DNA of 64,000 nt from contig CACHSZ010000001.1 in the NCBI GenBank assembly GCA_902582755.1, positions 295,982 through 359,981 on the forward strand, in the 5' to 3' direction. Origin of the DNA: an uncultured Alphaproteobacteria bacterium. Lineage in GTDB: Bacteria; Pseudomonadota; Alphaproteobacteria; HIMB59; GCA-002718135. The translations under genes and the position numbers were made by a program. The notes below the pieces were generated by a model, which worked only from the letters and a program-made list of their open reading frames with translations, was not told the origin of the DNA and searched no databases. Below are positions 9,174 through 29,057 of this stretch, piece after piece (positions within the stretch are counted from its first letter, which is position 1; the number at the start of each line of letters is the position of its first letter).

Positions 9174-10073
9174 TTAGTTATTTGCAGCAACTACAGCAGC
9201 CATAATTGATGCAAGTTTAGAATGTTTAGTATCAGCTCTACTAGGAACAACAACTGGTACTTTACCACCAATTACAATTCCTGCCGCACATGCCTTCATA
9301 AAATAAACCATTATTTTAGATAAAGAATTTCCAGTTTCTAAATTAGGTACTAATAAAATATCAGCATCACCAGCAACATCATTTTTGATTCCTTTTATTG
9401 TAGCCGCTTCTTTAGAAACCGCATTATCAAAAGCAAGCGGACCATGAATAAATGCATTAATTCTTTCTTCAAATGCAAGTTCCATAACTTTTTTTGCATC
9501 GACTGAACTTGGCATACTTTCAATTGGATCTTCTGTACCTGATAAAATTGCAACTTTTGGTTTGTTTCTGTTTAATTTGTTATAAAACTGAACAGCATTT
9601 TTGAGAATCTGTAATTTTATATCAACTCTTGGTAAAACATTCAGAGCACCATCAGTGATAAAAAGAGGTTTTTTAAGTTCCGGTGTAGTCATATGCCAAA
9701 TATGACTTAATCTTCTGCCATCAAGTAAATTAAATTCTTTTTTTAAATAAGAGCGCATTAAAATATCAGTATGGAGGTTCCCTTTAATTATAATTTTACT
9801 TTTATTTTCATTAGACATTTGACACGCAACTGAAGCACTATCCTCTTCATCTTTAGCCTCTACAATATTAAAATTAGAAATGTCTAAACTTAATTTTTTC
9901 GCTGTTTCAGCAATTAAACTTTTATTTCCAATTAAAGTTGGATCGATGAGGTTTATATTCTTACCTTCAATTACAGCTGATAATATGCTTTCTTGATTGG
10001 GGCACACAACTGCTGCTGGTATGTTAGGAGTCTCTAAAGCTTTACTTTTAAGATCTTCTGGTAATGTGCTCAT
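9174..10073 (-). CDS. Phosphate acetyl/butyryltransferase family protein
   Basis: The 299-residue protein matches the compact phosphotransacylase (PTA/PTB) family: N-H-containing G-P-L-A-F-D-N-A-V region near residue 215, D-I-L-L-V-P-N-L-E-T-G-N near 250, and a C-terminal G-G-K-V-P-V-V-V-P-S-R-A-D segment. Such enzymes exchange CoA and phosphate on short acyl groups (acetyl, butyryl). It is divergent from a transaminase/alanine dehydrogenase pair. In taurine catabolism a phosphotransacylase works with exactly such a pair, but the linking sulfoacetaldehyde acetyltransferase is not in the window. No acetate or butyrate kinase is adjacent. Confidence 0.85.
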   Translation of the reverse strand: MSTLPEDLKSKALETPNIPAAVVCPNQESILSAVIEGKNINLIDPTLIGNKSLIAETAKKLSLDISNFNIVEAKDEEDSASVACQMSNENKSKIIIKGNLHTDILMRSYLKKEFNLLDGRRLSHIWHMTTPELKKPLFITDGALNVLPRVDIKLQILKNAVQFYNKLNRNKPKVAILSGTEDPIESMPSSVDAKKVMELAFEERINAFIHGPLAFDNAVSKEAATIKGIKNDVAGDADILLVPNLETGNSLSKIMVYFMKACAAGIVIGGKVPVVVPSRADTKHSKLASIMAAVVAANN

Positions 10074-10115
10074 ATTTGGTATTCTCTCTATACCACTGCT
10101 ACAATTTTTCCTATG

Positions 10116-10141: not shown

Positions 10142-10191
10142 TCTTTGATTTATCGATAATTTCATATACTCAATCTATAATAAGGAAAAAA

Positions 10192-13693: not shown

Positions 13694-13700
13694 ATTTTTA

Positions 13701-15236: not shown

Positions 15237-15278
15237 ATTTACCAATAATTATTAAAGTAATTAATTAAGAAGAAATAC

Positions 15279-15387: not shown

Positions 15388-17442
15388 ATGTTAAAAAAAC
15401 TATTCATAGCGTTAGTATTTTCTTCCGCAACCTTTGTCTGGAGTGGAAGCTCTTTTGCAGGTGGTCATTGCGTAGGTACAACAATGAACGATGCACAGAC
15501 AGGCGGAAAATATCCTCAGCAATATGAGTTATCAGAATATGAAAGTGCAGCCGGCTGTACTATGAAGTTTTCAGATAATCCAAATATTGCTAGCATAAAC
15601 GCTACAATACAAGGTAACCCAGGAAGTCTACCTCCAGTTGAGGATAGATTACCTGATGAACCGCTTGTTGTAGTACCATATGAGTCTATTGGTAAATATG
15701 GAAATACAATAAACTTCTTATCGAACGCAACTGAAGCTGGAACTTCTGATATGTTATCTACAAGACACGTTAACTTATTACGTTTTGCTGATGACTTAAC
15801 TACAATTGTTCCAAACGTTGCTAAAGATTATGAGTGGAATGATGATTTCACTACTTTAACATTCATGTTACGTAAAGGTCACAAGTGGTCAAATGGTGAA
15901 CCTTTTGTGGCTAGAGATGTTGAGTTTTGGTACGAAGATTTGATGATGAATCCAAAGATTCGTGAAAAACCATATCCATATCTTTTAGTTGGTGGTGAGC
16001 CAATGACTGTTGATGTAATTGATGATCAAACAGTAAGATTTAACTTACCATCTCCGTTCCCTGGTTTAACTGCAACTATTGCATGGTCATATAACCAGTT
16101 CTTCATGCCTTCACATTTCCTAGAACAATTCCATCCGGAAATTGATTCAAATGCTGATGCAAATGCTCAGGCATTAGGATTTGCAGATGGTTATGATGCT
16201 TTAGCAGCATATTATGGTAACTCAGGTTGGACTGATACTCCAACTCCTTTACTAGCTAAACCAGATCTAGTTGCTGGATTACCTTATGCAGCTTATCCTT
16301 CTTTAGAAGCTTACATGACTATTGAAGACACTACTGAAGGTAGAGTCTATGCAGCTAACCCATACTTTTTCCAAGTTGATACAGCTGGGAATCAATTACC
16401 ATACATTGATTATCAAAATGAAAGATACATCAATGAAAATGAAATAAGATTGTTAAAACTTGTTAATGGTGAAGTTGATTATAAATCACAGTCTGTTCAA
16501 TTAGAGTCCGCTCCTCAATTACTTGATGGTGCTGAGTCTGGTGGATATCAAGTTCAAATCAATCCAGGTTGTGGTGCTGCATTATTTAGCTTTAATGTAA
16601 CACATCCTGATCCTGAAAAACGTAAAGTCTATGGGGATATTCGTTTCCGTCAAGCAATGTCAATTGCAATGAATAGAGACGAGATCAACGAAGTTGCATA
16701 TTACGGTTTAGGTAAAGTTGAGCAGTTTGTAGGATTTTCTCCTGCACCTGACTTCGTTCCTGAAAGTATAAAAATGCATATGACTCAATACGATCCAGAT
16801 GGAGCTAATGCTCTGCTTGATGAAGTAGGATTAAAAGACGTTGATGGTGATGGATTTAGAGAATTACCAAATGGTGATGCTCTAGCTATTAACATTGACT
16901 ATGCTACTCAAGGTATTGGTGGTGTTGAAGTTGAACTTGTTGCAAGATACTTCAATGAAGTAGGAGTAAAAACTACTTTTAAAGAGGTAACTCCAGATGA
17001 ATATCGTGGTTCGCAAGCTGCTAACCAACTTGACGTTCATGTTTGGGATAAAGGTCAACCATTAGCAATTGTTGCTGGTAACCCAGAAACATTTAAACCT
17101 CCGTTTGGTAACTACTTTAACCATACACAAGGTTTAGATTGGGCAGCATACATTGATAGTAATGGTGACGAAGGTACTAAACCTCCTCAGTGGGTATATG
17201 ACTTAAGTGATGGAATTGATAAATTCCAATCTTACGCTCTTGGTACTGCTGAATCTAATGAGTGGGGTGAAAAAATTGCAACAATGTTAACAGAGCAAAG
17301 TCTATTGATTGGTACGGTGAAAGCACCTTTCCCAACTTATCATAGAAATGCTTTGAAAAACTTTACGCAGTTTAAAACTACTTCGTATGAGTATTATAGA
17401 ACATACCCATACCTAGCTACTCAATGGTGGTTAGACGAGTAA
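15388..17442 (+). CDS. ABC transporter substrate-binding protein, family 5 (Dpp/Opp type)
   Basis: The 684-residue protein has a signal peptide (cleavage after S-F-A, residue 24; mature A-G-G-H-C) and the family-5 binding-protein signature around W-N-D-D-F-T-T-L-T-F-M-L-R-K-G-H-K-W-S-N-G-E-P (residues about 150-172). It is longer than DppA/OppA (about 530). Large family-5 proteins in alphaproteobacteria bind oligopeptides or oligosaccharides. AGGAG seven bases before the ATG gives a strong start. A 12-base-stem hairpin follows. The full permease and ATPase set lies downstream, and the run continues into sugar and sulfonate enzymes, favouring a sugar-like ligand (inference). Confidence 0.9.
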   Translation: MLKKLFIALVFSSATFVWSGSSFAGGHCVGTTMNDAQTGGKYPQQYELSEYESAAGCTMKFSDNPNIASINATIQGNPGSLPPVEDRLPDEPLVVVPYESIGKYGNTINFLSNATEAGTSDMLSTRHVNLLRFADDLTTIVPNVAKDYEWNDDFTTLTFMLRKGHKWSNGEPFVARDVEFWYEDLMMNPKIREKPYPYLLVGGEPMTVDVIDDQTVRFNLPSPFPGLTATIAWSYNQFFMPSHFLEQFHPEIDSNADANAQALGFADGYDALAAYYGNSGWTDTPTPLLAKPDLVAGLPYAAYPSLEAYMTIEDTTEGRVYAANPYFFQVDTAGNQLPYIDYQNERYINENEIRLLKLVNGEVDYKSQSVQLESAPQLLDGAESGGYQVQINPGCGAALFSFNVTHPDPEKRKVYGDIRFRQAMSIAMNRDEINEVAYYGLGKVEQFVGFSPAPDFVPESIKMHMTQYDPDGANALLDEVGLKDVDGDGFRELPNGDALAINIDYATQGIGGVEVELVARYFNEVGVKTTFKEVTPDEYRGSQAANQLDVHVWDKGQPLAIVAGNPETFKPPFGNYFNHTQGLDWAAYIDSNGDEGTKPPQWVYDLSDGIDKFQSYALGTAESNEWGEKIATMLTEQSLLIGTVKAPFPTYHRNALKNFTQFKTTSYEYYRTYPYLATQWWLDE

Positions 17443-17463
17443 TTTAACTCAATAAATAATAAA

Positions 17464-17500
17464 AAAAGCGGCAATTATATATTGCCGCTTTTCTTTTTTT
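17464..17500 (+). terminator. Strong hairpin with T-tract before the permease gene
   Basis: Twelve-base perfect stem AAAAGCGGCAAT (17464-17475) / ATTGCCGCTTTT (17481-17492), five-base loop, then a T-rich tract to 17500. It ends 29 bases before the permease start in the same direction, so leaky termination or mRNA protection is likely. Confidence 0.88.
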
Positions 17501-17528
17501 AATTATTCTTGTCTCCTAATTATTTTAT

Positions 17529-18542
17529 ATGATTAATTTTATACAATTTACTCTCACAAGAGCAGGACTTGCAATTATAACTTTGCTTCTTGTATGCTTT
17601 ATTGTTTTTTCATTAATGGAATTAGTTCCTGGAACTTGTGCTGAAAGATATCTAGCATTTAAAAATACACAAGGATCACAAATAACTTATGAAGACATAG
17701 AAAAAGAAAAAATTCGTTTAGGTTTAGATAAACCTTTTTTGTATAGATATGGCAAATGGGTTTCCAATATAGTTTTTAATGGAGATTTTGGTGATAGTTG
17801 TATTCTAAGAATGAATATTAATGAATTATTAAGTGGAAGATTTACTTTATCTTTAACAATATGTTTGGTTGCACTAATATTTTCATATTTAATTGCCATA
17901 CCAGTTGGGATCATATCGGCCACGACAAAATATGCATCATTAGATAATACGCTTAAATTTATTAGTTATCTTGGAATAGCACTTCCTAATTTTTTAGTAG
18001 CACTCTGTATTATGCTTTTTATGACTGTTTACTATGGAGATACGATGACAGGTTTATTCTCTCAAGAATATGAAAACGAACCCTGGTCATCAGCAAAACT
18101 ATTTGATTTTTTAAGTAGAGCTTGGCTTCCAATATTTGTTTTAGGTTGGAATGCAACTGCCTTTGCTCTTCAAACAGTTAGAGCACTAATGCTAGATGAA
18201 AATGATAAACTATATGTAATGGCTGCAAGGGCTAGAGGAATATCAGGAATGAGTTTGTTGTGGAGATATCCAGCAAAACATTCTTTAGGTCCAGTAATCA
18301 ATTCTATAGGTTTCGACCTTAATCGTATATTTAGTGCATTGCCGATTGTGGCCTTAATTTTAATTCTTACAGAAGCTGGGGCATTGTTGATTGAAGCTTT
18401 AGCAAGATCAAATGATCAGCAATTAGCAGGTGCAATTATTTTTCTTCTAACAGCAACAATTGTTTTTGTAAATTTTATAACGGATATTATTTTAGCTATA
18501 ATTGATCCAAGAATAAGAAAAGGAGTTATGGGTGGAGGTTAG
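17529..18542 (+). CDS. Dpp/Opp-type ABC transporter permease (DppB-like)
   Basis: The 337-residue membrane protein begins F-I-Q-F-T-L-T-R-A-G-L-A and has six predicted membrane segments. It shows the DppB pattern L-V-P-G-T near residue 33, G-L-D-K-P-F-L-Y-R-Y near 62, and the ATPase-contacting loop A-A-R-A-R-G-I-S-G near 235. It forms the channel with the 18532 product for the ligand of the 15388 protein. It begins without a clear ribosome-binding site just after the hairpin and overlaps the next gene by 11 bases. Confidence 0.9.
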   Translation: MINFIQFTLTRAGLAIITLLLVCFIVFSLMELVPGTCAERYLAFKNTQGSQITYEDIEKEKIRLGLDKPFLYRYGKWVSNIVFNGDFGDSCILRMNINELLSGRFTLSLTICLVALIFSYLIAIPVGIISATTKYASLDNTLKFISYLGIALPNFLVALCIMLFMTVYYGDTMTGLFSQEYENEPWSSAKLFDFLSRAWLPIFVLGWNATAFALQTVRALMLDENDKLYVMAARARGISGMSLLWRYPAKHSLGPVINSIGFDLNRIFSALPIVALILILTEAGALLIEALARSNDQQLAGAIIFLLTATIVFVNFITDIILAIIDPRIRKGVMGGG

Positions 18543-19692
18543 TAATCAAAAAAAAGAAGCTTATTATACTGCAACGCAGATGCAGTTAGTAAGAACACGC
18601 TTTTTTGGAAATAGATCTGCAATGATTGCTGGTTCTATTTTATTATTTATGATTATTTGTAGTCTATTTGCAGATTTTCTATCTCCTTATGATCCAACAA
18701 TTAAAGGAAGAGATAAAGATTATGAAAACGGAGCACCTCAAATTCCAATGTTTTGGGATGATAATGGATTTTCTGCTAGGCCGTTTTTACACACATTAGA
18801 AAAGTATAGAGGAGCAGATACAAATTTTAGATGGGTCTATAAAGTTGATACTGAAAAAAGAAGATACGTTTATTTTTTTGTTGAAGGATGGGAATATAAA
18901 GTTTTTGATTTTAATATAAATCTTCCAGGAAAAATTTTAGATTTTAAAATTCCAGGTTTTACATTTAATACTCATTTATTTGGAGTTGAAGAAGGCGGTA
19001 TCCATATATTTGGCACAGATAAGGCAGGAAAAGATTTATTCAGTAGAACCTTAAGCGCAATTTACATTTCACTGGCTGTTGGAACTCTTGGTGTATTTAT
19101 ATCTTTTGTTCTATCCCTAATAATAGGCGGGATCTCAGGTTACTATGGTGGTTGGATTGATAGCGTATTACAAATGTTTACTGATGCAATTCGAACGGTT
19201 CCACCCATACCTCTGTTTATGTGTCTTGCTGCCTTTGCGCCATTAGAATGGAGTTCTGAATTACGTTTCTTTTTTATATCTTGTTTGCTTGGATTAATTT
19301 CATGGCCAACACTTGCAAGAAGAGTAAGAACACATTTACTTAGTGAAAGAAGCCAAGAATATATTCTTGCTGCAAAACTTTGTGGAGCATCATCTACTCA
19401 CATTATTGTAAGACACTTATTACCAAGTTTCACGAGTTATATTATTGTGGATTTAGTCATTAGTTTTCCATACATGTTATTATCTGAAACGGCTTTAAGT
19501 TTTATAGGACTTGGTTTGAGAGAACCGGTAAACTCTTTAGGTGTACTTTTGCAAAATGCAACAAAAGCCGACGTACTTTTAAACTATCAATGGTATTTTA
19601 TCCCTGTATTTTTCTTAGTCGTATTAATTTTAACATTTGTCTATGTAGGGGATGGATTACGTGATGCAGCAGATCCTCATAAGGTAAAGTAA
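18532..19692 (+). CDS. Dpp/Opp-type ABC transporter permease (DppC-like) with periplasmic insertion
   Basis: The GTG start at 18532 has AAAAGGAG six bases upstream and is preferred over a later ATG. The 386-residue protein is about 90 longer than DppC. The extra length is a soluble insertion, roughly residues 45-160, between the first and second membrane segments, ending at the conserved H-I-F-G-T-D-K-A-G-K-D-L-F-S-R. The loop A-A-K-L-C-G-A-S-S near 282 contacts the ATPases. Such insertions are known in YejE-like permeases and may touch the binding protein. Confidence 0.9.
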   Translation: MEVSNQKKEAYYTATQMQLVRTRFFGNRSAMIAGSILLFMIICSLFADFLSPYDPTIKGRDKDYENGAPQIPMFWDDNGFSARPFLHTLEKYRGADTNFRWVYKVDTEKRRYVYFFVEGWEYKVFDFNINLPGKILDFKIPGFTFNTHLFGVEEGGIHIFGTDKAGKDLFSRTLSAIYISLAVGTLGVFISFVLSLIIGGISGYYGGWIDSVLQMFTDAIRTVPPIPLFMCLAAFAPLEWSSELRFFFISCLLGLISWPTLARRVRTHLLSERSQEYILAAKLCGASSTHIIVRHLLPSFTSYIIVDLVISFPYMLLSETALSFIGLGLREPVNSLGVLLQNATKADVLLNYQWYFIPVFFLVVLILTFVYVGDGLRDAADPHKVK

Positions 19693-19693
19693 T

Positions 19694-20683
19694 ATGAGTC
19701 ATTTATTAGAAGTAAAAAATTTAGATGTAAAATTTGATACTGATGAAGGTAGAATTACAGCAGTTGAAAATATTTCTCTTTCTGTAGATCAAGGTGAAGT
19801 ACTTGGTATAGTTGGTGAATCCGGATCAGGTAAATCTGTGACTGCTAAATCGATTATGAAATTAAATCCAGGTAATACTTCTTATAATGAAGATGCAGAA
19901 ATAATTTTAGACAACGAAAATGTTCTTCAATTTACCTCTAAGCAAGACTTAAAAAAAATAAGAGGTGGTAAAGTATCAATGATTTTTCAAGAGCCTATGG
20001 CAAGTTTTGCTCCAGCAATAAAAATTGGCGCACAAATGGTTGAGCAATTACTAATTCATAAAAATATTAATAAAGAGGAAGCAAAATCAATATCCATAAA
20101 CATGCTAAAAAGAGTAGGCATAGCAGATGCAGAAAAACGGTTTAATCAATATGCATTTGAATTATCTGGGGGAATGCGTCAAAGAGCAATGATAGCTATG
20201 GCACTATCCACTATGCCTAAACTTTTATTAGCAGATGAGCCAACAACTGCTTTAGACGTAACAATTCAAGCTCAAGTAATTAATCTAATTAAAGATATTA
20301 TTAAAGAATATCAAATGGGAGTAATATTTATTACTCACGATCTAGGTGTTATTGCTCAGGTAGCTGATCATGTAGCGGTTATGTATTTGGGAAGTGTAGT
20401 GGAGAAAGGTCCAGTAAATGAGATCCTTAAAAATCCAAAACATCCTTATACAAAAGGGCTATTACAAGCTTTACCTGATATAAATAACTTAGACGCACCG
20501 TTATCTCCAATACCTGGAAATATTCCAAGTCCATTAGATAGACCAACAGGGTGTGTATTTAGAACTAGATGCCCCCATCATAATACGGAGGGAAAAGATG
20601 GTAAAATAGAAATGAAATTAATTGAAGTTGAACCAGGTCACTGGGTTGATCAATGTGGAATTAAGTGTGGTCAAAATGGGTGA
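19694..20683 (+). CDS. Dpp/Opp-type ABC transporter ATP-binding protein (DppD-like)
   Basis: The 329-residue cytoplasmic ATPase has Walker A G-E-S-G-S-G-K-S near residue 40, the signature L-S-G-G-M-R-Q-R near 155, Walker B L-L-A-D-E-P-T-T-A-L-D near 175, an H-loop I-T-H-D, and the oligopeptide-family C-terminal domain with cysteines (G-C-V-F-R-T-R-C-P-H). It powers the transporter with the next gene product. It starts one base after the DppC-like gene and its 3' end overlaps the next ATPase by eight bases. Confidence 0.93.
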   Translation: MSHLLEVKNLDVKFDTDEGRITAVENISLSVDQGEVLGIVGESGSGKSVTAKSIMKLNPGNTSYNEDAEIILDNENVLQFTSKQDLKKIRGGKVSMIFQEPMASFAPAIKIGAQMVEQLLIHKNINKEEAKSISINMLKRVGIADAEKRFNQYAFELSGGMRQRAMIAMALSTMPKLLLADEPTTALDVTIQAQVINLIKDIIKEYQMGVIFITHDLGVIAQVADHVAVMYLGSVVEKGPVNEILKNPKHPYTKGLLQALPDINNLDAPLSPIPGNIPSPLDRPTGCVFRTRCPHHNTEGKDGKIEMKLIEVEPGHWVDQCGIKCGQNG

Positions 20684-21662
20684 TAATTTAATTTCAGTAA
20701 ATAATGTTTCAGTAAATTTTGATTATCAAGAAAATTTTATTTCAAAAAAACAAAAAATACATGCTGTAAACAATATCAATATCAAAATTAAAAAAGGATC
20801 TTTTTTTGGTTTAGTGGGTGAATCTGGTTCAGGAAAAACTACTCTTGGTAGAGCAATACTTGGAGCTAATAAAATTAGTTCTGGAAATGTTATTTTTCAT
20901 GACGATGAAAGAGATTATGATTTAACAGATATGAACAAACAAGATTTAAAGGAATATAGAAAAAAAGCTCAATTAATTTTTCAAGATCCTTATGCTGCTT
21001 TAAGTCCAAGAATGACAGTGAGGGATATTATTGCAGAGCCTTTAGAAGTGATGAGAATAACAAACTCAAGACAAGAGACTGATGAAAGAGTAAGAGATAT
21101 CGCAGCTAAATGCAGACTAAATATTGAGCATTTACGAAGATTCCCTCATGCATTTTCTGGAGGACAAAGACAAAGAATATCAATTGCAAGAGCCTTAGTA
21201 AGTAATCCAAAATTTATAGTAGCAGACGAAAGTGTTGCTGCTTTAGATGTATCAATACAAGCAGATATATTAAATCTTTTAAAACAACTTCAAACCGAGC
21301 TTAACCTAACTTATTTATTCATAAGTCATGATTTAAGTGTAGTAGCTCATGTATGTGATGTTGTTGCAGTTATGTATTTGGGGCACATAGTTGAAATGGG
21401 ACCCTCAAGAGAATTATTTAAGAACCCAAAACATTCTTACACAAAGGCACTATTATCTTCTATTCCATCAATTGATCCAGAGAAAAGATCTGAAGCTATA
21501 GAACTAAAGGGAGAAATACCTAGCGCATTAAATCCACCTCCAGGTTGTGTGTTTAGAACCAGATGTCCTAATCCTGGAGTAGATTGCAAAGGTGGAGAAA
21601 TAAAAATGGGCCTTATTGAAGTTGAACCAGGTCACTGGGTAGACCAGTGTTGTGTTTTATAA
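20676..21662 (+). CDS. Dpp/Opp-type ABC transporter ATP-binding protein (DppF-like)
   Basis: I start this at ATG 20676 (M-G-D-N-L-I-S-V-N-N), because the longer frame from 20622 only translates the end of the previous gene in another frame. The 328-residue ATPase has Walker A G-E-S-G-S-G-K-T, Q-loop F-Q-D-P-Y-A-A-L, signature F-S-G-G-Q-R-Q-R, Walker B F-I-V-A-D-E-S with the usual DppF Ser in place of Pro, and the C-terminal cysteine motif C-V-F-R-T-R-C-P. It is the second ATPase of this importer. Confidence 0.93.
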   Translation: MGDNLISVNNVSVNFDYQENFISKKQKIHAVNNINIKIKKGSFFGLVGESGSGKTTLGRAILGANKISSGNVIFHDDERDYDLTDMNKQDLKEYRKKAQLIFQDPYAALSPRMTVRDIIAEPLEVMRITNSRQETDERVRDIAAKCRLNIEHLRRFPHAFSGGQRQRISIARALVSNPKFIVADESVAALDVSIQADILNLLKQLQTELNLTYLFISHDLSVVAHVCDVVAVMYLGHIVEMGPSRELFKNPKHSYTKALLSSIPSIDPEKRSEAIELKGEIPSALNPPPGCVFRTRCPNPGVDCKGGEIKMGLIEVEPGHWVDQCCVL

Positions 21663-21693
21663 AAAAGTATCTTTTAAAAACACATAACATTTT

Positions 21694-22593
21694 ATGAAAA
21701 GTAATTTATTTTTAGCTGTAATCCTATCACTTTCAGGTTTGTTCTTATTAGATTGTATGGGCATAGCGATAAAGTTTTTGCGAAACGATTACCCAGCTGC
21801 TCAACTTTCTGTTTTTCGAAATTTATTTGGGATGATTCCATGTGTTATTGCTTTATATTTTTCACAAGATTGGCATCGCAAAGGTAGACAAATAAAAATA
21901 ACGCAATGGAAGTTAGGATTATTTCGTGGAGTTTTTGTAGCCTTAGCTCAATTGTGTCTATACACTTCTTATGCTTACCTCCCTTTTGCTTTAGTTGCTA
22001 CCATGGAATACACAGGACCTATGATGGTTACTCTTCTTGCCATTCCTATATTAGGTGAAAAATTTGGTTGGTACAAAATGAGTGCTGTAATTTCTGGATT
22101 TGCGGGTATCGTTTTAATTATGCAGCCTTGGTCATCAGACTTTAATTATATGTTATTACTTCCTATCCTTGCTGCTTTTGGATATTCATTAGCAAGGGTA
22201 ACATCTTTAAGTTTTGAGGATCACGTTCCTTCACCTCTTATCAACTTATACGGTCAAACAGGAACGATCATAGTTGCATGTATGTTAGTATTGTTTTTTG
22301 ATATGTGGGAAAATTTCAAAAGTATAAATGATTTCTTAATAGTTTGTGTAATGGGAATTGCAGGAGGATCTGGTACTTTACTATTAATATATGGTGCTAG
22401 AAAAGCAGAACTTAGCAAAATTATGCCATTTGATTACATTGAGATATTTTTTGCACTTATTTTAGGTTGGATATTTTTTGCAGAATGGCCAGTTGATCAA
22501 CTCTTCCCAGGTGCTTTTTTCATAGTTTCAGGTGGATTAATCATTTATCTTCAACAAAGAAAAAATAATTTTCAAAGATTAAGGAAAACATAA
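21694..22593 (+). CDS. EamA/DMT-family transporter
   Basis: The 299-residue protein has about ten membrane segments in two EamA repeats, opening with L-F-L-A-V-I-L-S-L-S-G-L-F-L-L-D. It lies 31 bases after the importer ATPase and overlaps the epimerase start by one base (TAATG), so it is in the same transcript. In this setting it may export a waste product, for instance a small sulfonate or organic acid formed by the pathway; that is inference only. Confidence 0.88.
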   Translation: MKSNLFLAVILSLSGLFLLDCMGIAIKFLRNDYPAAQLSVFRNLFGMIPCVIALYFSQDWHRKGRQIKITQWKLGLFRGVFVALAQLCLYTSYAYLPFALVATMEYTGPMMVTLLAIPILGEKFGWYKMSAVISGFAGIVLIMQPWSSDFNYMLLLPILAAFGYSLARVTSLSFEDHVPSPLINLYGQTGTIIVACMLVLFFDMWENFKSINDFLIVCVMGIAGGSGTLLLIYGARKAELSKIMPFDYIEIFFALILGWIFFAEWPVDQLFPGAFFIVSGGLIIYLQQRKNNFQRLRKT

Positions 22594-23645
22594 TGGAATA
22601 CAAAATTACCAAACTTCAAAATGATAAAGGTTTAGATATTGACATAGTTAATATTATTAACTCAAATAATTATAGTTTTAGTTTTTATACATATGGCGGC
22701 TATATGAGTGAAGTTTGTATTCCAATTTCTTCGAATGTTGCTGAAACAGAGGATGTATTGTTAGGTTATGCTAATTTAAATGATTGCCTGGAAGCTCATG
22801 GATATTTCAATTCAATTATTGGGAGAGTTTGTAATAGAATAGGGAAAAGTAAATTTACTCTTAATGGGGAAGAATATAATTTATATTCTAATACCAAACC
22901 TGATCATCTTCACGGTGGAGAGGTAGGTTTTAATAAAAAGATTTGGAAAATAGCTGATATTAAAAAAACAAGTAAAAGTATAAAAGTAGAGCTCACTTAC
23001 CAATCTAAACATTTAGAAGAAAATTATCCAGGCAACTTAAATTGTAAAACTATTTACGAGCTTAATAATAATAACGAAATTCTAATTTCCTTTAATGCTA
23101 CTTCTGACAAAGATACTATTGTAAATATGACTAATCATAATTATTGGAATTTTCATGGTCATAAAGATAATTATAAAAATATTACTGAGCATGTTGTCAG
23201 AATATTATCAAATCAAATTTGTGAAACAGATGAGGGGTCAATTCCTACTGGAAAGCTATTAGATGTAGTTGATACAAAATATGATCTTAATAACTCATTT
23301 GAAATAAATAATGCTTTTTTAGAAAGTGGTGGTATCGATCACAATTATGTTCTCAAAGATCATTCTATTGATAAATCTATAGCTTCCGTCTACAGTAAAA
23401 TTACTGGTTTAGGAGTTGAATACTCGACTGATCAACCTGGTATACAATTTTATACTGGGAATATGATGAAAGACTCATACGATGGCAAACATAATCGAAA
23501 TTATGGCTTACAATACGGTATGTGTTTGGAGACGCAAATTTTTCCTGATGCTATTAATCAACCAAATTTTCCATCAACTATATTAAAAGTAGGTGAAACA
23601 TATAATTCAAACACAAAAATAAAATTAAGAAATGATTTTAAATAA
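22593..23645 (+). CDS. Aldose 1-epimerase (GalM-type mutarotase)
   Basis: The 350-residue protein matches GalM: N-S-I-I-G-R-V-C-N-R-I near residue 70 (substrate-binding Asn/Arg), H-L-H-G-G near 110, T-N-H-N-Y-W-N near 183 with the catalytic His, D-H-N-Y-V-L near 249, and L-E-T-Q-I-F-P-D-A near 310 with the catalytic Glu. It speeds interconversion of sugar anomers in the cytoplasm. Mutarotases of this family also serve fucose or sulfoquinovose pathways. Its place directly before comDE-like genes makes a sulfo-sugar substrate worth considering. Confidence 0.9.
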   Translation: MEYKITKLQNDKGLDIDIVNIINSNNYSFSFYTYGGYMSEVCIPISSNVAETEDVLLGYANLNDCLEAHGYFNSIIGRVCNRIGKSKFTLNGEEYNLYSNTKPDHLHGGEVGFNKKIWKIADIKKTSKSIKVELTYQSKHLEENYPGNLNCKTIYELNNNNEILISFNATSDKDTIVNMTNHNYWNFHGHKDNYKNITEHVVRILSNQICETDEGSIPTGKLLDVVDTKYDLNNSFEINNAFLESGGIDHNYVLKDHSIDKSIASVYSKITGLGVEYSTDQPGIQFYTGNMMKDSYDGKHNRNYGLQYGMCLETQIFPDAINQPNFPSTILKVGETYNSNTKIKLRNDFK

Positions 23646-23691
23646 ATTAATTTATTGTTTTATAATTTTATATCTATAGACATCCGCTTAA

Positions 23692-24192
23692 ATGAAAATT
23701 AGTAAAAAAATCATCGATAATTTAAAAAAAGGTGGAGTAGATTTTTACTTAAGTGTTCCTTGTAAGCTATTAGCTAACATGATTGATATTCTTGAAAATG
23801 ATAAGGATGTTTATTATTCTGCTGTACCAAGAGAGGAAGAAGGTATGGGTATTTGTGCTGGGGCTTATTTAGGAAATAAATTCCCCTGTATAATGATGCA
23901 GAATACAGGAATAGGAAATTCAGTGAATGCAATTGTTTCTTTACTACAATTATATCAAATGCCTGTTGTTTTTCTAATTAGTTACAGAGGTACACCAGGT
24001 GAACCAGTAGGAGCGCAAGGTGGAATGGCGAAAATTACTGAAGATATTTTACAAACATTAAGAATTCCTATTTTGCATTGCTATTCTGAAAAAGAATTAG
24101 ATAAAATTTCAACATTTAGCAAACATGCCAAAGTTGTTGAATCTCCAGTAGCTATTTTATGTGATTTCAATTTAATGAAAGATGATACATGA
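23692..24192 (+). CDS. comD: Sulfopyruvate decarboxylase alpha subunit
   Basis: The 166-residue protein equals the N-terminal TPP-enzyme domain found as the separate ComD subunit: S-V-P-C near 21-24, R-E-E-E-G-M-G-I-C-A-G-A-Y-L-G at 47-61 with the TPP-activating glutamate, and Q-N-T-G-I-G-N-S-V-N-A. With ComE it decarboxylates 3-sulfopyruvate to sulfoacetaldehyde, known from coenzyme M synthesis and from bacterial sulfolactate degradation. The next gene overlaps by four bases (ATGA) and supplies the other half. Phosphonopyruvate decarboxylase is a close relative but is usually one fused chain. Confidence 0.85.
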   Translation: MKISKKIIDNLKKGGVDFYLSVPCKLLANMIDILENDKDVYYSAVPREEEGMGICAGAYLGNKFPCIMMQNTGIGNSVNAIVSLLQLYQMPVVFLISYRGTPGEPVGAQGGMAKITEDILQTLRIPILHCYSEKELDKISTFSKHAKVVESPVAILCDFNLMKDDT

Positions 24193-24758
24193 ACCGTTTT
24201 GACTTGTTAAATAAGATACAAAGTATTCTTAAAGATAACTTAGTTATTTGTAATATAGGTCTTCCATCTCAAGAATTGTATAAAATTAATGATCAACCAA
24301 ATTTTTTTTATATGTTAGGTAGTATGGGCTTATCATCTTCTATTGGCTTAGGCTTGGCACTATCACAAAATAAACACGTTGTTAGTATAGATGGTGATGG
24401 ATCAGTTTTAATGAATATGAATACCCTAGCAACAATAGGCAATAGAGCGCCATCAAACTATACTTTATTGATAATTGATAATGGTTCTTATGGATCAACA
24501 GGAGATCAACGAACATTTACTGATGAGAAAACTTCCTTAAAGGATGTTGCTTTAGGAGCTGGCTGCAAAAATGTGGTTGAATGTTCTGGCGAGGAAACAG
24601 TTAATGCATTGCACAAAGCCATTGCTGATAAAGATAATTCATATGTAATAATTTCAAAGATCAATTCTGGGAATGTTAAAATTGATCCCATTCCACTCAA
24701 TCCTATAACTATAAGAGATAGGTTTAGAAAGTTTATTGGAAAAGTTAAATACCTTTAA
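24189..24758 (+). CDS. comE: Sulfopyruvate decarboxylase beta subunit
   Basis: The 189-residue protein is the TPP pyrophosphate-binding half: G-D-G at 69-71 followed by N98 in I-I-D-N-G-S-Y-G gives the G-D-G-x27-N Mg/TPP motif, and G-S-T-G-D-Q-R-T follows as in ComE. It pairs with the overlapping alpha subunit gene. No methanogen-type coenzyme M genes are near, so a catabolic role in sulfolactate, DHPS or sulfoquinovose breakdown is likely. The next enzyme for sulfoacetaldehyde (Xsc or a reductase/oxidase) is not seen in this window. Confidence 0.85.
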   Translation: MNRFDLLNKIQSILKDNLVICNIGLPSQELYKINDQPNFFYMLGSMGLSSSIGLGLALSQNKHVVSIDGDGSVLMNMNTLATIGNRAPSNYTLLIIDNGSYGSTGDQRTFTDEKTSLKDVALGAGCKNVVECSGEETVNALHKAIADKDNSYVIISKINSGNVKIDPIPLNPITIRDRFRKFIGKVKYL

Positions 24759-24768
24759 TTAATATTTT

Positions 24769-25677
24769 ATGATCATTTGCGCAGGATCAATATTTACAGA
24801 TTACATAAGTAGGATTAATAAATTTCCAAAAAAACCAATTAAAGTCTTATCTAGAGGTATTGATAAAAGATTAGGCGGTTCAGCAGCGGTATCGGCATTT
24901 ACTGCAAAAATTTTGGGCTCTGATTCAAGATTCATAGGAAAATTTGGAGATGATGATTCATCAGTCTTTTTAAAAAATGAATTAAAAAAATTTTCTATTA
25001 ATACTAGTAAATCAATTTTTATAAAAAAATGTCAGTCTTCACAAAGCTTTGTAATAGAGGATACAAAAGGTGAAAGATTACTAGCAGCATACAATGATCC
25101 AAAATTACTTAATTGTAAGAAAATACCCAAATTAAATTTTAAAAAAAAGGATATTTATTCAATAGATATGAGATGGATAGATATGGCCTCTAATATTGCT
25201 ATTAATACTAATAAAAAAAATATTAAATGTGTTGCTGATCTAGATAATTTTAAAAATTCAAATAAAATTTCTGAAATCGTTAACAAAGCTTCTCACCCTA
25301 TATTTTCTGAAGAAGGCTTGAAAACTTATAAAAAAAACATCAATATGCAAAAAGCTCTTTTTCAAATATTCAATGAAACAAATAAATTTGTTGCAGTTAC
25401 TATGGGATCAAAAGGTGTTTATTGGGTTGAAAATAACTCATTATTTCATTGTAATGTTCCAAAGGTAAAAACAGTTGAAACGAATTGTGCTGGAGATGTT
25501 TTTCATGGTGCTTTTGCAACAGCTCTATCATTAAATAAATCAAATTCTCAAAGTATTCAATTAGCAGCAGCTACTGCAACTTTAAAATGTATGAAAGCTG
25601 GGGGTATATATTCAATACCAAATTTAAACAACGTAAAAAAGTTTTTAAAAAAATTAAAAATTAGAAAAATTAAATGA
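24769..25677 (+). CDS. PfkB-family carbohydrate kinase
   Basis: The 302-residue protein is a ribokinase/PfkB kinase: R-L-G-G-S-A-A-V-S-A near residue 35 binds the sugar and C-A-G-D-V-F-H-G-A-F near residue 245 holds the catalytic Asp and anion hole. The usual D-T-x-G-A-G-D reads E-T-N-C-A-G-D, with Cys in place of the first Gly. It would phosphorylate a sugar or sugar acid with ATP. Sulfofructose kinase belongs to this family, and the comDE genes upstream plus mutarotase make that a candidate; fructose, ribose or KDG are others. The end overlaps the next gene as ATGA. Confidence 0.85.
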   Translation: MIICAGSIFTDYISRINKFPKKPIKVLSRGIDKRLGGSAAVSAFTAKILGSDSRFIGKFGDDDSSVFLKNELKKFSINTSKSIFIKKCQSSQSFVIEDTKGERLLAAYNDPKLLNCKKIPKLNFKKKDIYSIDMRWIDMASNIAINTNKKNIKCVADLDNFKNSNKISEIVNKASHPIFSEEGLKTYKKNINMQKALFQIFNETNKFVAVTMGSKGVYWVENNSLFHCNVPKVKTVETNCAGDVFHGAFATALSLNKSNSQSIQLAAATATLKCMKAGGIYSIPNLNNVKKFLKKLKIRKIK

Positions 25678-26609
25678 CAAAAATTTTAATTACAGAATTT
25701 ATGGATTCACAATCATTGCAAAATATAAATAAAAAATTTGAAGTAATTTATAAAAAAGATGCTTGGCAAAATAAAGATTTTTTGGAGAAAGAAATTCAGA
25801 ATTTTGATGGCATCATTGTAAGAAATAAAACAAGTTTAGATAAGAATATTTTAATAAATGCGTTAAATTTAAAGTTTATAGGAAGATTAGGTGTTGGTCT
25901 TGATAATATAGATACAGAATACTGCAAAAAAAATAATATCATTGTTCAGCCAGCAACAGGTATGAATTCCGACTCTGTTGCTGAATACGTTGTGAATTCT
26001 TCTCTCACATTATTAAAAAAAACTCACATTATTAAAGAACAAACTCTACAAGGAAAATGGCCAAGAACATCAATTGTTACAAAAGAACTAAAAGGAAAGA
26101 TTCTTGGTTTAATAGGTTTTGGGGATATTTCTAAAAAAGTTTTAAATCTTGTAAATGTTTTTGATGTTACCTGTATTGCATATGATCCTTTTATAACTTC
26201 AAAACAAATGGAGGTAGAAAATGTTAAAAAAGTATCATTCGATGAAATTCTTAATTTGGCCGACATAATTTCTATTCATGTACCATTAAATAATGAAACT
26301 AGGTATCTATTTGACAGACAAGCGTTTATTAGAATGAAAAAACAACCAATTATAATTAATTCTTCCAGGGGTGGCGTCATCAATGAGAAAGACTTAATTG
26401 ATGCTTATAAAAATAAATATATCTCTGGTTTCGCATTAGATGTTTTTGAAAATGAACCAGTAAATGAAGCATTTTATAACAATATTACAAATGATATGAA
26501 TTGCATATTAACACCTCATATCGCAGGTGTAACTGCGGAGTCAAACGTGAGAGTAAGTAATTTTATAATTGATAAAACAAATAAATTTTTTGAAAATTTT
26601 AAAGATTAA
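25674..26609 (+). CDS. D-isomer-specific 2-hydroxyacid dehydrogenase, sulfolactate dehydrogenase candidate
   Basis: The 311-residue protein has the SerA/2-hydroxyacid dehydrogenase layout: G-R-L-G-V-G-L-D-N-I near 65, the Rossmann motif G-L-I-G-F-G-D-I near 145, and the catalytic Arg (N-S-S-R-G-G), Glu (D-V-F-E-N-E-P) and His (T-P-H-I-A-G). It would oxidise a 2-hydroxyacid with NAD. The bacterial (S)-sulfolactate dehydrogenase SlcC belongs to this family, and the gene lies two genes after comDE in one transcript, so oxidation of sulfolactate to sulfopyruvate is a reasoned but unproven role. Phosphoglycerate dehydrogenase is the alternative. The 3' end overlaps a convergent gene. Confidence 0.85.
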   Translation: MTKILITEFMDSQSLQNINKKFEVIYKKDAWQNKDFLEKEIQNFDGIIVRNKTSLDKNILINALNLKFIGRLGVGLDNIDTEYCKKNNIIVQPATGMNSDSVAEYVVNSSLTLLKKTHIIKEQTLQGKWPRTSIVTKELKGKILGLIGFGDISKKVLNLVNVFDVTCIAYDPFITSKQMEVENVKKVSFDEILNLADIISIHVPLNNETRYLFDRQAFIRMKKQPIIINSSRGGVINEKDLIDAYKNKYISGFALDVFENEPVNEAFYNNITNDMNCILTPHIAGVTAESNVRVSNFIIDKTNKFFENFKD

Positions 26610-27687
26610 ATTCACTCATCTTAACCACACGATTTTCTTTTATTGATTTCTCTGCTGCTTCTCCAATAGCGACTGCATGAAGACCATCATTTATAGAAAC
26701 TTGTGGCTTTAAATTATTATTAATTGATTTAATAAATTCTAAATGTTGATAATAAGTCGATCCATGATGTTGCCCAGCTGATAAGATTTTTTTATCCACC
26801 TCAACTATTTTTTTAATTGCATTTTTAGAGTCTCTTAAACCAATTCTAACTTCTGAAGAATTTTTTCCGGATGCATCAGCTGGAACACCTGTTTCTATTT
26901 TACCCTTATCTCCAACAACACATAGCTCTTCTTGCATTTCTGAATTTTCTGCGAACATACAAAGTTCTAAAGAACTTCTTATTCCATTTTTAAAATCTAA
27001 AATTACAAATGCATTGTCTAATATATCAGGAACTTTTCCATTATAATTTTCATTAAGATGATTTACACTTTGGCCACCACTTGCATATACTTGTGTAACT
27101 TCACTGTTTGTAATTAGGCGCATTAAATCAAAAAAATGACAGCATTTTTCTACTAATGTTCCACCGGTATTTATTTGGAATCTATTCCAATCATCTACCT
27201 TTTTGAGAAATGGAAATCTATGTTCACGAATTGAAAGCATTTTAAGCTTACCAATTTTATTACTATCTATTTCTTGGATCATTTTTTGAACAGGTGGCAT
27301 GTACCTATACTCCATAGCCACCCATATTACTGATGGATATGAAGCTGATAATTTTTTAATTTCAAGACAATCTTCTAATTTTGTACATAAGGGTTTTTCA
27401 ATTAATAAATGTTTTTTTGTTTTTAATGCTTCTTTAATAATATCATGATGGGTAAAGTTGGGAGTTGAAATAATAAACGCATCTACTTCATTATTATTAA
27501 AAATTTCAGTATTATTTGAATAGATTTTAATATCATTTGAAATAAGATTTTTAGCTTTATTTATTGAATTTTCATTACTGTCAGAGATAGCAACTACTTC
27601 AGCTGAATCAATAAGATTAATATTTGAAATATGTTCACAACCCATTAGTCCACTTCCAATAATTCCATATTTAATTTTTGTTTTCAT
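26599..27687 (-). CDS. Gfo/Idh/MocA-family oxidoreductase
   Basis: The 362-residue protein has the N-terminal dinucleotide fold (Y-G-I-I-G-S-G-L-M-G at 7-16) and the E-K-P-L-C family motif near residue 97, then a beta-sheet substrate domain with G-G-T-L-V-E-K-C-C-H-F-F-D. Family members oxidise or reduce sugars, inositols and glycosides with NAD(P). It overlaps the isomerase gene upstream by four bases and is convergent with the 2-hydroxyacid dehydrogenase (11-base overlap). One of four such proteins in this window. Confidence 0.9.
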   Translation of the reverse strand: MKTKIKYGIIGSGLMGCEHISNINLIDSAEVVAISDSNENSINKAKNLISNDIKIYSNNTEIFNNNEVDAFIISTPNFTHHDIIKEALKTKKHLLIEKPLCTKLEDCLEIKKLSASYPSVIWVAMEYRYMPPVQKMIQEIDSNKIGKLKMLSIREHRFPFLKKVDDWNRFQINTGGTLVEKCCHFFDLMRLITNSEVTQVYASGGQSVNHLNENYNGKVPDILDNAFVILDFKNGIRSSLELCMFAENSEMQEELCVVGDKGKIETGVPADASGKNSSEVRIGLRDSKNAIKKIVEVDKKILSAGQHHGSTYYQHLEFIKSINNNLKPQVSINDGLHAVAIGEAAEKSIKENRVVKMSEFNL

Positions 27688-29057
27688 GTTGTGTAAATTG
27701 GAATATTTAATTGGGCACTTAATTTATTTATTTCTGAATATACATCCCCATAAGTGAAAGCTAAATGATGTTCAATACCAGACGTGAATAAACTAACTAA
27801 TTTTTGATAGGTATTTTTTTGCAATTTAACAACACCCGAAGTACCTGAAAATGAATTTTTTTTATCTAAAACTTCACCCTTCATAACAATAAATTTTAAT
27901 TTATTTTCTGATTTTGAAACTCTAAATATTGTTATTTTACCAGGTCTAAATGCAAAATCATGTAGCAATGCTTTCCTTCTATTAGAATGTACAGTTGCAC
28001 TTGCTGTATTTTTTTTTGCCATACTAATTGGAGCTAATCCACAATGCCAAAAAACTAAAGTATCAGTTTTGGGGTCACAATCAACAATGTCTACTAAAAG
28101 TGAAGGTTTATTATTTATCTTATTTAAAATATCACAACTTATACTTCCTAATACATCAGCTTCACATGCGCTACTAATACCTTTTTCATTCATCATAGCC
28201 ATTGGACCACATGATGCGCATCCAAATTGTGTAAACATTTCAGGCCAGCACTTAATTGCAAAACTATCAATTTTGTTATCATTTTTTATTTTTTCTAATC
28301 CATGAAAAATTGAAATACTTTTATTTAATTCATTCGCATTCAACTTGGAGACTGATTTCAAATTTTTTTTTATTTGATTTTTAGTTTTTGAAATATCTTT
28401 ATTGCTAACATTTTTAGAAATATTAAATAAAGTTTCTAATTTAATTTTCTTAACATTATAATTTAATTTTTTTTCTATTTCTTTATTATCATAATCACAG
28501 GTAAAAAAACCATCTGGTCTTTTACCAACAAGTCCTAAATTCTTTTTTTTTGAAAAAATTTCGTAATTCTCTCTTTTAGAATTTGTTATTTTTTTTAATC
28601 TATTATTCTTTAAAATTTTTTTATTCTTTATAAAATTATTAATTCTTTCCATTTCGAATAATTTATTATTAATAAATATTGAAAATTCTGGCTTATATTT
28701 TAATTTGATTAATGAATGCATAGCAAGATTTACACCACATAAAGAGTTCAATCTTAACCGTTTTCCTGTTCTTGGCTCTTTAAAACTTATTAAGTGTATT
28801 GGTTTATTAAATGTTTTGGCAAAACTTGTTATAAATTTTGCATCAGTGAAAGTTGTTTGAGCAATGATATATTTGCTACAATTTAGTTTTTTAAAATATC
28901 TAACAGCTTTTTTTCCTGTTTCATCATCTGTAATTAATTCTTTAAAATGTGAGTATTTAATGTCTAAAATATCTATAAATTTTTCAAACCTTTTTTTATT
29001 ATCTAAAGCATAATTTATATCAAATGTATCTCTTGCTAATGCTAAATAACCAATCAT
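27684..29057 (-). CDS. L-fucose/L-arabinose isomerase-like protein
   Basis: The 457-residue protein has a lysine-rich middle and a C-terminal half resembling the FucI/AraA-like group: K-C-W-P-E-M-F near residue 266, C-A-S-C-G, S-S-A-C-E-A-D-V-L-G and F-W-H-C-G-L-A-P near 335, with conserved Glu, Asp and His as metal ligands. Relatives isomerise aldoses and ketoses; I recall that a sulfoquinovose isomerase also belongs to this broad family. It is divergent from the 29193 transporter and is translated with the Gfo/Idh gene. It may isomerise the sugar imported by either neighbour. Substrate unproven. Confidence 0.78.
   Translation of the reverse strand: MIGYLALARDTFDINYALDNKKRFEKFIDILDIKYSHFKELITDDETGKKAVRYFKKLNCSKYIIAQTTFTDAKFITSFAKTFNKPIHLISFKEPRTGKRLRLNSLCGVNLAMHSLIKLKYKPEFSIFINNKLFEMERINNFIKNKKILKNNRLKKITNSKRENYEIFSKKKNLGLVGKRPDGFFTCDYDNKEIEKKLNYNVKKIKLETLFNISKNVSNKDISKTKNQIKKNLKSVSKLNANELNKSISIFHGLEKIKNDNKIDSFAIKCWPEMFTQFGCASCGPMAMMNEKGISSACEADVLGSISCDILNKINNKPSLLVDIVDCDPKTDTLVFWHCGLAPISMAKKNTASATVHSNRRKALLHDFAFRPGKITIFRVSKSENKLKFIVMKGEVLDKKNSFSGTSGVVKLQKNTYQKLVSLFTSGIEHHLAFTYGDVYSEINKLSAQLNIPIYTT

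Follow-up and report, generated by a model that had tools for sequence, protein, structure and literature searches.

Sulfoquinovose is the sugar of the algal membrane sulfolipid. Its production amounts to roughly ten billion tonnes per year (PMC10755693). Known sulfoglycolytic pathways cleave the sugar and release a C2 or C3 sulfonate for secondary pathways that often belong to other organisms, and mineralisation within one cell has so far been described for sulfolytic routes (monooxygenase, dioxygenase) and for a sulfofucose tandem (PMC12890257, PMC12421959). The published gene clusters nearest to the one described here carry SuyAB in the place of the sulfopyruvate decarboxylase ComDE and are predictions only (PMC11465081). 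Here we analysed a stretch of 64,000 nucleotides (the window; bases 295982-359981 of contig C1, running to the contig end, G+C content 30 %) from an uncultured alphaproteobacterium, whose genome comprises 1.43 Mb on 35 contigs and is 84.6 % complete. The host probably belongs to the AEGEAN-169 group and perhaps to its subclade II.

In our reading, two convergent operons of the window would serve to take up sulfoquinovose and break it down by a route of the sulfo-Embden-Meyerhof-Parnas (sulfo-EMP) type, and then via an SlcC-like dehydrogenase, ComDE and Xsc to acetyl phosphate and sulfite. We put the probability of this reading at about three in four. The gene families, their order, their conservation and the presence of Xsc and HpsN on the contig were read from the DNA itself; the activities are predictions, the aldolase step above all. 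An earlier note, made from the letters of this DNA, had proposed a sulfo-sugar or sulfonate module around comDE, and this is still the best reading, given the affinity of ComDE and the conservation of the neighbourhood reported below. All genes it listed are intact open reading frames at the positions it gave, and their families were recovered with NCBIfam and Pfam, and the frames bear out a co-directional run on the + strand, from the importer to a 2-hydroxyacid dehydrogenase, facing a convergent isomerase and Gfo/Idh pair on the - strand. Overlaps of 1-4 bases join EamA to GalM, ComD to ComE, the PfkB kinase to the dehydrogenase and the isomerase to the Gfo/Idh gene, as is usual in operons.

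The Gfo/Idh gene (26599..27687, - strand) is the one for which the generic family label of the earlier note had to be replaced. Among structures in the PDB its product matched 8qc2 with 362 bits, 8qc3 with 355 and 8zn9 with 325, and the next entry, the unlike Gfo/Idh protein 3ezy, reached 107. 8QC2 is a crystal structure of family GH188 (PMC11465081), and the active site of the GH188 enzyme SqgA is described in PMC10755693. The residues that bind the sulfonate in SqgA, Arg166, Leu170 and Lys172 (PMC10755693, PMC11465081), correspond to R157, L161 and K163 of the window protein, and each is kept in all 85 aligned sequences (84 relatives and the window). Lys107, Tyr136, Glu189, His193 and His321 of SqgA correspond to K98, Y127, E180, H184 and H308, of which the first four are likewise kept in 85/85 and H308 in 84/85. 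The alignment included sequences longer than 330 aa only, with some genomes represented twice. The protein is thus likely an NAD+-dependent sulfoquinovosidase of the GH188 (SqgA) type, and on the difference between 362 bits to the solved SqgA and 107 to the next structure an ordinary oxidoreductase was rejected. In relatives, a GH31 gene (locus L032) is a weak candidate for a sulfoquinovosidase and was not accepted as one; it is 23 % identical to YihQ and closer to MalA.

The adjoining isomerase (27684..29057, - strand), whose gene shares 4 bases with that of SqgA, has the fold of arabinose and fucose isomerases, which agrees with the FucI/AraA-like label given to it earlier, and it matches the model of the sulfoquinovose isomerase SftI (NF048012) over the full length. 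We predict that it works like SftI, without classing it as SftI. A sequence search of the PDB with this protein returned one weak match (E 0.23) and a profile search none, and a protein search for a named SftI gave only names of the kind 'isomerase-like' or 'isomerase family' among the 120 listed of 1332 entries. A second, 28 % identical isomerase paralogue lies in another kind of cluster (L045:10104-11555, L046:9417-10862); in L045 it adjoins genes of the E1-dehydrogenase alpha/beta type, and in genome G022 a LacD-type aldolase is found about 6 kb from the paralogue.

The sugar part has two further genes. The PfkB kinase (24769..25677, + strand) had as its top PDB match the sulfofructose kinase of E. 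coli, YihV (7ag6, 160.8 bits), followed by an entry at 99 bits and by ribokinase at 62, and is a predicted 6-deoxy-6-sulfofructose kinase, 35.5 % identical to YihV. Of the substrate residues of YihV, which we take to be Lys27, Asn109 and Arg138, the first and the last are present and Asn109 is replaced by Ala. The GalM-family aldose 1-epimerase (22593..23645, + strand; Aldose_epim 230 bits) is a predicted sulfoquinovose mutarotase; it is a general match to the mutarotase family, with 260.8 bits against TIGR02636, under the cut-off of 397.65, and a weak match (23 %) to YihR of E. coli.

The lower part of the route begins with the two subunits of sulfopyruvate decarboxylase. ComD (alpha; 23692..24192, + strand) scored 159.5 bits against TIGR03845 (cut-off 147.95) and ComE (beta; 24189..24758, + strand) 226 bits against TIGR03846 (cut-off 221.5), and both stayed under the cut-off for phosphonopyruvate decarboxylase. 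The closest plasmid relatives of ComE are comE genes of Roseobacter (56-60 % identity), with annotated phosphonopyruvate decarboxylases at 31-36 %, among the 30 listed of 84 records. The earlier note had regarded a placement of ComDE with phosphonopyruvate or other 2-ketoacid decarboxylases as fatal to its proposal; by the curated cut-offs and nearest relatives, ComDE does not side with the phosphonopyruvate enzymes. Both Roseobacter comDE loci that we inspected are of the 2,3-dihydroxypropane-1-sulfonate (DHPS) type, with a TRAP transporter and genes of the hisD type (HpsN-like), a short-chain dehydrogenase/reductase (SDR) and an alcohol dehydrogenase (ADH) around, and one of them includes xsc.

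The 2-hydroxyacid dehydrogenase (25674..26609, + strand) is a predicted (S)-sulfolactate dehydrogenase of the SlcC kind. Its identity to the five top matches among plasmid records is 38-41 %, compared with 35 % to the best-scoring of five paralogues in its own genome and 28 % to SerA of E. coli. Three of these matches, from Paracoccus, were inspected and lie in operons of the sulfolactate type, each flanked by genes of a tripartite tricarboxylate transporter (TTT) on one side and an Ldh-family (ComC-like) gene on the other; UxaA-family (SuyAB-like) genes occur in two of the three operons, and HpsNOP-like genes also in two. A fourth matching region, from Sinorhizobium, is without annotation. 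In a tree of 27 rows, all 22 that come from operons for sulfonates or sulfo-sugars, with the unannotated Sinorhizobium row counted among them and no characterised SlcC included, stood apart from the five others with a branch support of 85/91. Three of the original 30 rows had been left out, one translated from a wrong start, with internal stops, and two long-branch paralogues. The phylogeny proposed earlier as a check thus leans to SlcC rather than SerA, and at this support the grouping is suggestive and not decisive.

Xsc is encoded on the same contig outside the window, with its end 36 kb upstream of comD, and scored 956.5 bits against TIGR03457 (cut-off 676.4). The earlier statement that no Xsc is visible therefore holds for the window and fails for the contig, and the genome search for xsc that it called for was positive. 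Between Xsc and comD lies a HisD-like gene. Its product matched a sulfopropanediol 3-dehydrogenase in the PDB with 402 bits and the best true histidinol dehydrogenase with 256, and a role in histidine synthesis was rejected in favour of HpsN. Among 37 genomes of the genus, that of the window counted with them, Xsc was found in 28, ComE in 27 and both in 20, and in 14 of these 20 a single contig carries the two at a distance of 31-57 kb. Neither was found in any of the 24 genomes searched from another family of the order. The genomes of the genus and family are 55-99 % complete, and absence in a single genome means little. Just upstream of the window (L026:4603-10600), the stretch from xsc to hpsN holds a CysQ-like (inositol-monophosphatase-family) gene, a CysD-like (phosphoadenosine-phosphosulfate-reductase-family) gene and a fused CysN/CysC gene with 899 bits (cut-off 715), and genes of SnoaL-family proteins come after hpsN.

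The neighbourhood is conserved beyond what chance would give; its conservation the earlier note had named as the second point on which its proposal might fall. In 18 loci of the same genus with a close isomerase (fragments G003:C15 and G034:C42 not counted), the Gfo/Idh gene is present in 18 and ComD, ComE, the PfkB kinase and the dehydrogenase in 17, the lone exception (L036) stopping at a contig end. A scan of named genomes gave at least 315 loci with an isomerase relative, of which the best 80 by isomerase similarity were analysed; the two sets share genomes. Sorted by isomerase identity (L110 by organism), 50 of the 80 are window-type, 12 are of the gammaproteobacterial SUP05/Thioglobus type and 18 are distant; the closest named loci come from single-cell genomes and metagenome-assembled genomes labelled uncultured Alphaproteobacteria or Pelagibacteraceae. 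SqgA lies within 3 kb of the isomerase in all 50 window-type and all 12 SUP05-type loci and in 6 of the 18 distant ones, and 6 further distant loci have a GH31-family gene instead. A PfkB-family kinase within 8 kb was detected in 47/50, 11/12 and 15/18 loci of the three types, respectively (the distant ones 24-34 % identical), and the dehydrogenase in 48/50, 11/12 and 9/18, with one window-type locus (L053) carrying a different dehydrogenase. ComDE occurs within 10 kb in 47/50 window-type and 2/18 distant loci, and the other three window-type loci stop at contig ends. A LacD-type aldolase accompanies the isomerase in 5/50 window-type, 9/12 SUP05-type and 14/18 distant loci.

Two loci of Rhodobacteraceae (L123 and L128) carry the two parts in one run, PfkB-LacD-isomerase-SqgA-GalM-aldehyde dehydrogenase-2-hydroxyacid dehydrogenase-ComD-ComE. 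The aldehyde dehydrogenase is of the succinate-semialdehyde dehydrogenase (SSADH) type; in L128 it scored 625.9 bits, just below the SSADH cut-off of 646.35. The kinase and GalM of L123 and the ComD of both loci were detected by tblastn only, and the two clusters are near-copies of each other, with aldehyde dehydrogenases 98 % identical. This gene order is that of the proposed route up to ComDE, and by this analogy it is the strongest single argument for regarding the sugar and the sulfonate parts as one pathway.

The substrate is expected to enter by the Dpp-type ABC importer at the head of the + strand run. It consists of a family 5 substrate-binding protein of the DppA type (15388..17442; SBP_bac_5 177.6 bits), the permeases DppB (17529..18542; BPD_transp_1 71.2 bits, 91-100 % identical in relatives where seen) and DppC (18532..19692; BPD_transp_1 91 bits, OppC_N 45) and the ATPases DppD (19694..20683) and DppF (20622..21662), both with ABC_tran and oligo_HPY domains; the real start of DppF probably lies 3' of 20622. 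The best PDB matches of the DppA-type protein are 5ipw (249 bits), which bears the name of a putative oligopeptide-binding protein, SPH1118 (207), presumably a glycan-binding family 5 member, and the alpha-galactoside-binding protein 6epy (103), compared with about 45 bits for classical DppA. The similarity of the protein to glycan binders of family 5 exceeds that to classical DppA, which fits the import of a glycoside, and we predict that it binds sulfoquinovosyl glycerol or sulfoquinovose. The EamA-family transporter that follows (21694..22593, + strand; EamA 83.7 bits in Pfam) is present in 16 of the 18 same-genus loci and possibly has a role in export. Many relatives, some 23 of the 50 loci of the window type, have an extra Gfo/Idh pair (329 and 352 aa; e.g. 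L027:3927-5990) between DppF and EamA; the window is without this pair.

Regarding the aldolase and the sulfolactaldehyde dehydrogenase, the situation was less clear. The earlier note saw no sulfofructose-phosphate (SFP) aldolase in the window, and the genome search likewise gave no enzyme of the LacD/YihT type. In genomes G020 and G026 the genes for a LacD-type aldolase and for the isomerase have 4 bases in common. The genome of the window has two class II aldolases. One, a fructose-bisphosphate aldolase (588.2 bits, cut-off 496.35), lies on contig C9 (L173:5056-6120) in a sugar-importer-like operon. The other (277 aa) stands in a row with a PfkB kinase and genes of the KduI/IolB, nucleoside-phosphorylase and IF-2B (MtnA-like) families (L172:3399-8006), which looks like an operon for methylthioadenosine salvage (dihydroxyacetone phosphate shunt). 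The SFP aldolases of the sulfo-EMP2 pathway are of class II (PMC12890257). On a plasmid of Zymomonas, an aldolase of this class, only 33 % identical to that of the window genome, is encoded beside GalM, a related isomerase and an SqgA relative 49 % identical to that of the window. Because of these two observations we propose the fructose-bisphosphate aldolase for SFP as well; that it doubles in this way is a guess.

For sulfolactaldehyde dehydrogenase, the search suggested earlier brought up one general enzyme that stands out and nothing dedicated. An SSADH on contig C3 scored 726.8 bits against TIGR01780 (cut-off 646.35) and shares 49 % identity with the enzyme of the L128 cluster and 52 % with that of the L115 cluster. 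In the Ruegeria pathway GabD-2 is named as sulfolactaldehyde dehydrogenase (PMC11131964). The suyAB search, also suggested earlier, did not return a good SuyB: the best match to the protein in the SuyB position of Paracoccus has 29 % identity in a 518-aa frame and is more like a general UxaA-family protein, which speaks against a SuyAB route. An Ldh-family gene of the window (42120-43169) was not accepted as ComC either, with 201.5 bits against a cut-off of 500 and 204.2 bits to ureidoglycolate dehydrogenase.

The proposed pathway would run as follows. The importer would bring in sulfoquinovosyl glycerol or sulfoquinovose, SqgA would release sulfoquinovose from the glycoside, and GalM would interconvert its anomers. 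The SftI-like isomerase would form sulfofructose, the YihV-like kinase sulfofructose 1-phosphate, and the class II fructose-bisphosphate aldolase may cleave the latter into dihydroxyacetone phosphate and sulfolactaldehyde. The SSADH-type enzyme could oxidise sulfolactaldehyde to sulfolactate, the SlcC-like dehydrogenase sulfolactate to sulfopyruvate, and ComDE would decarboxylate sulfopyruvate to sulfoacetaldehyde, from which the Xsc encoded upstream would make acetyl phosphate and sulfite. A phosphate acetyltransferase (Pta)-like protein (9174..10073, - strand; PRK08190 304.7 bits, cut-off 282; PRK11890 281 bits, under the cut-off of 413) may then convert acetyl phosphate to acetyl-CoA, a link to the pathway that we infer. 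A more far-reaching version is that the genus, made up of streamlined bacteria of the open ocean, mineralises sulfoquinovose to sulfite in one cell by an unreported tandem of sulfo-EMP and SlcC-ComDE-Xsc, mostly without a dedicated SFP aldolase, the glycolytic class II aldolase cutting both substrates and the Dpp-type importer supplying the sulfoglycoside. In this full form the proposal is tentative and somewhat doubtful.

Several observations weigh against the sulfoquinovose pathway as we draw it. Searches of the 84.6 % complete genome gave no match to DeoC/LacD-family aldolases and none to the LacD-type model, which is present in 4 of 41 genomes, in one of them beside the isomerase, and the best candidate for the aldehyde dehydrogenase, an SSADH of the general kind, is encoded on a different contig. 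The isomerase reached 288.7 bits against the SftI model, with a curated cut-off of 700; isomerases clustered with SqgA in other organisms fall into the same range, with 252.9 to 298.3 (L128, L115, L125, L094, Zymomonas), one beside a GH31 gene 278.6, that of Chlorohelix 343.4 and the paralogue from the other kind of cluster 150.7. ComE exceeds the TIGR03846 cut-off in 14 of the 27 genomes of the genus that have it, and the branch support in the dehydrogenase tree is under the 95/80 mark. Xsc was absent from all 80 loci, as expected from its distance. The kinase of L123 and L128 is only 24-25 % identical to that of the window. In the SUP05-type loci the dehydrogenase is present in 11/12 and ComDE within 10 kb in 0/12, so the dehydrogenase does not need ComDE. 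Moreover, the role of ComDE and the dehydrogenase could be confined to imported DHPS or sulfolactate.

This last point leads to an explanation in which two pathways share one locus: degradation of sulfoquinovose is partial and ends with sulfolactate or DHPS, which leaves the cell, perhaps through EamA, and ComDE with the SlcC-like dehydrogenase serves external DHPS or sulfolactate by way of HpsN. The presence of HpsN (402 versus 256 bits), the location of Roseobacter ComDE in DHPS-type operons and the lack of an aldolase and an aldehyde dehydrogenase in the block fit it. It sits badly with the tight run that ComDE, the kinase and the dehydrogenase form with GalM, and with L123 and L128, where the upper and lower arms are united, and on balance we find it unlikely. 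It could also be true together with the sulfoquinovose pathway, if the lower arm serves both substrates.

The identity of the sugar and of the cleavage step give rise to other explanations. A different 6-sulfo sugar, such as sulfofucose or sulforhamnose, has some precedent in the related sulfofucose tandem pathway (PMC12421959), yet SqgA retains the residues that contact sulfoquinovose at its hydroxyls and its sulfonate, and FlSqgA is inactive on nitrophenyl glucosides (PMC10755693), which leaves this option little chance. Very little chance is left also to a route in which the isomerase feeds a sulfofructose transaldolase (SFT, also sulfo-TAL) and the kinase has another substrate. The isomerase is of the SftI type found in such routes, no LacD-type aldolase was found in the genome, and one TAL_FSA-family protein was (227 aa, 209.7 bits); however, this protein (C2:53682), the only transaldolase, is encoded on a different contig and probably belongs to the pentose-phosphate pathway, the kinase matches YihV best, and many relatives have a PfkB-family kinase and a LacD aldolase together with the isomerase. 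Least credible, with next to no chance, is a phosphonate module with ComDE as phosphonopyruvate decarboxylase. The two enzymes are homologous and the PDB entry closest to ComE, 9iz3, is named phosphonopyruvate decarboxylase, but the curated cut-offs and the nearest relatives of ComE point to sulfopyruvate, a phosphoenolpyruvate mutase match is lacking, and SqgA, Xsc and HpsN are present; this reading was rejected.

Other parts of the window and of the related loci deserve mention. On the + strand of positions 9174-12647 there are an omega-aminotransferase AptA gene (585.5 bits, cut-off 500) and an alanine dehydrogenase-family gene (276 bits), and together with the Pta-like gene these could form an amine or taurine-type entry that feeds Xsc too. 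At positions 12644-15245 a MetE-like gene accompanies a gene of the sulfatase family, which is PehA-like with 411.6 bits (cut-off 900) and has a C-x-P-S-R motif; both adjoin DppA in five relatives (L039, L041-L044). Near the isomerase in L030:2526-6316 and L040:14845-18621 there are a second sulfatase, a formylglycine-generating-enzyme-family protein (the L030 copies were tested) and a 610-618-aa protein, the L030 copy of which had no NCBIfam match at E 1e-8. Scans of the window with Rfam and for tRNAs gave nothing. In the VIA-align comparison, rows below rank 19 were short partial matches and were left aside.

In L027, L031 and L040 the Dpp-ComDE side is 88-100 % identical to the window and the isomerase-SqgA side 58-64 %, and three different sugar islands adjoin the isomerase, with a swap boundary near PfkB and the dehydrogenase. 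SUP05/Thioglobus are sulfur oxidisers, and their loci (L091, L094, L096-L101, L108, L109) carry isomerase-SqgA-PfkB-2-hydroxyacid dehydrogenase clusters, most of which also include a LacD-type aldolase and an ABC importer for sugars. The Zymomonas mobilis plasmid pZZM402 (L157:128-9391) combines a class II aldolase, GalM, an SftI-like isomerase, an SqgA relative, major facilitator superfamily transporters and a TonB receptor, a probable sulfoquinovose cluster that is not annotated as such.

If the sulfoquinovose pathway is real, sulfoglycolysis is linked to ComDE and Xsc in a free-living group of the open ocean, which would shift part of the organosulfur cycle into its own cells, turning sulfoquinovose into sulfite in a single cell with no leftover for other microbes. 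For the South Pacific Gyre, relative abundances of AEGEAN169 as high as 6 % have been counted (PMC11366302), and the main text of a 2023 metabolic survey of AEGEAN-169 contains zero occurrences of 'sulfonate', 'sulfo', 'taurine' and 'xsc'. The combination of comDE with sqgA, the kinase and the SlcC-like dehydrogenase could serve as a marker in field data, and the pathway raises the question which enzyme takes the place of the aldolase.

In the titles, abstract openings and passages searched, subscription journals aside, we found no description of a tandem of GH188, SftI-like isomerase and YihV-like kinase with SlcC-like dehydrogenase, ComDE and Xsc, nor any paper joining a sulfoquinovose isomerase with sulfopyruvate decarboxylase. 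The sulfo-EMP pathway of Arthrobacter with GH188 SqgA (PMC8873060, PMC10755693) shares with our locus the NAD+-dependent sulfoquinovosidase, an isomerase, a sulfofructose kinase and, as proposed here, a course through sulfolactaldehyde and sulfolactate. It differs in its YihS-type isomerase, its YihT aldolase and the excretion of sulfolactate, whereas here the isomerase is of the FucI/AraA type, no such aldolase was seen and ComDE and Xsc follow. Sulfo-EMP2 (SqvD, SqiK, SqiA; PMC12890257) and a hybrid sulfo-EMP pathway from Vibrio that uses SqiA (PMC13372026) have the same intermediates and a class II SFP aldolase, the class proposed here, but they are described as ending at DHPS or sulfolactate and their SqiA is dedicated and encoded within the cluster.

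The clusters of IMCC26103 and Clavibacter with the Tyr variant of GH188 (PMC11465081) likewise contain a fucose-type isomerase, a D-3-phosphoglycerate-type dehydrogenase, a sulfofructose kinase and GH188, and one of them is also without an SFP aldolase; they have SuyAB where our genome has ComDE and Xsc, and Tyr at the sulfonate residue that is Leu here. The operon of Roseobacter for DHPS, with hisD, SDR and ADH (hpsNOP-like) genes and comDE (PMC11131964), corresponds to the lower arm with ComDE, Xsc and HpsN, with xsc nearby in one of the two loci inspected; a sugar part, SqgA, kinase or isomerase is not annotated there. The sulfofucose-sulfolactate tandem of Paracoccus wurundjeri (PMC12421959) also leads from a sulfo-sugar to sulfite in one organism through SlcC, but its upper part is Entner-Doudoroff-like and the C-S bond is cleaved by SuyAB after ComC instead of ComDE and Xsc. 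Of the earlier expectation that the route would be new or completed elsewhere, the second half stands, with Xsc lying outside the window, and the first does not hold step by step. The single steps are mostly known chemistry, and what is new is their combination, in which a GH188 enzyme, an SftI-like isomerase and a YihV-like kinase would feed an SlcC-like dehydrogenase, ComDE and Xsc.

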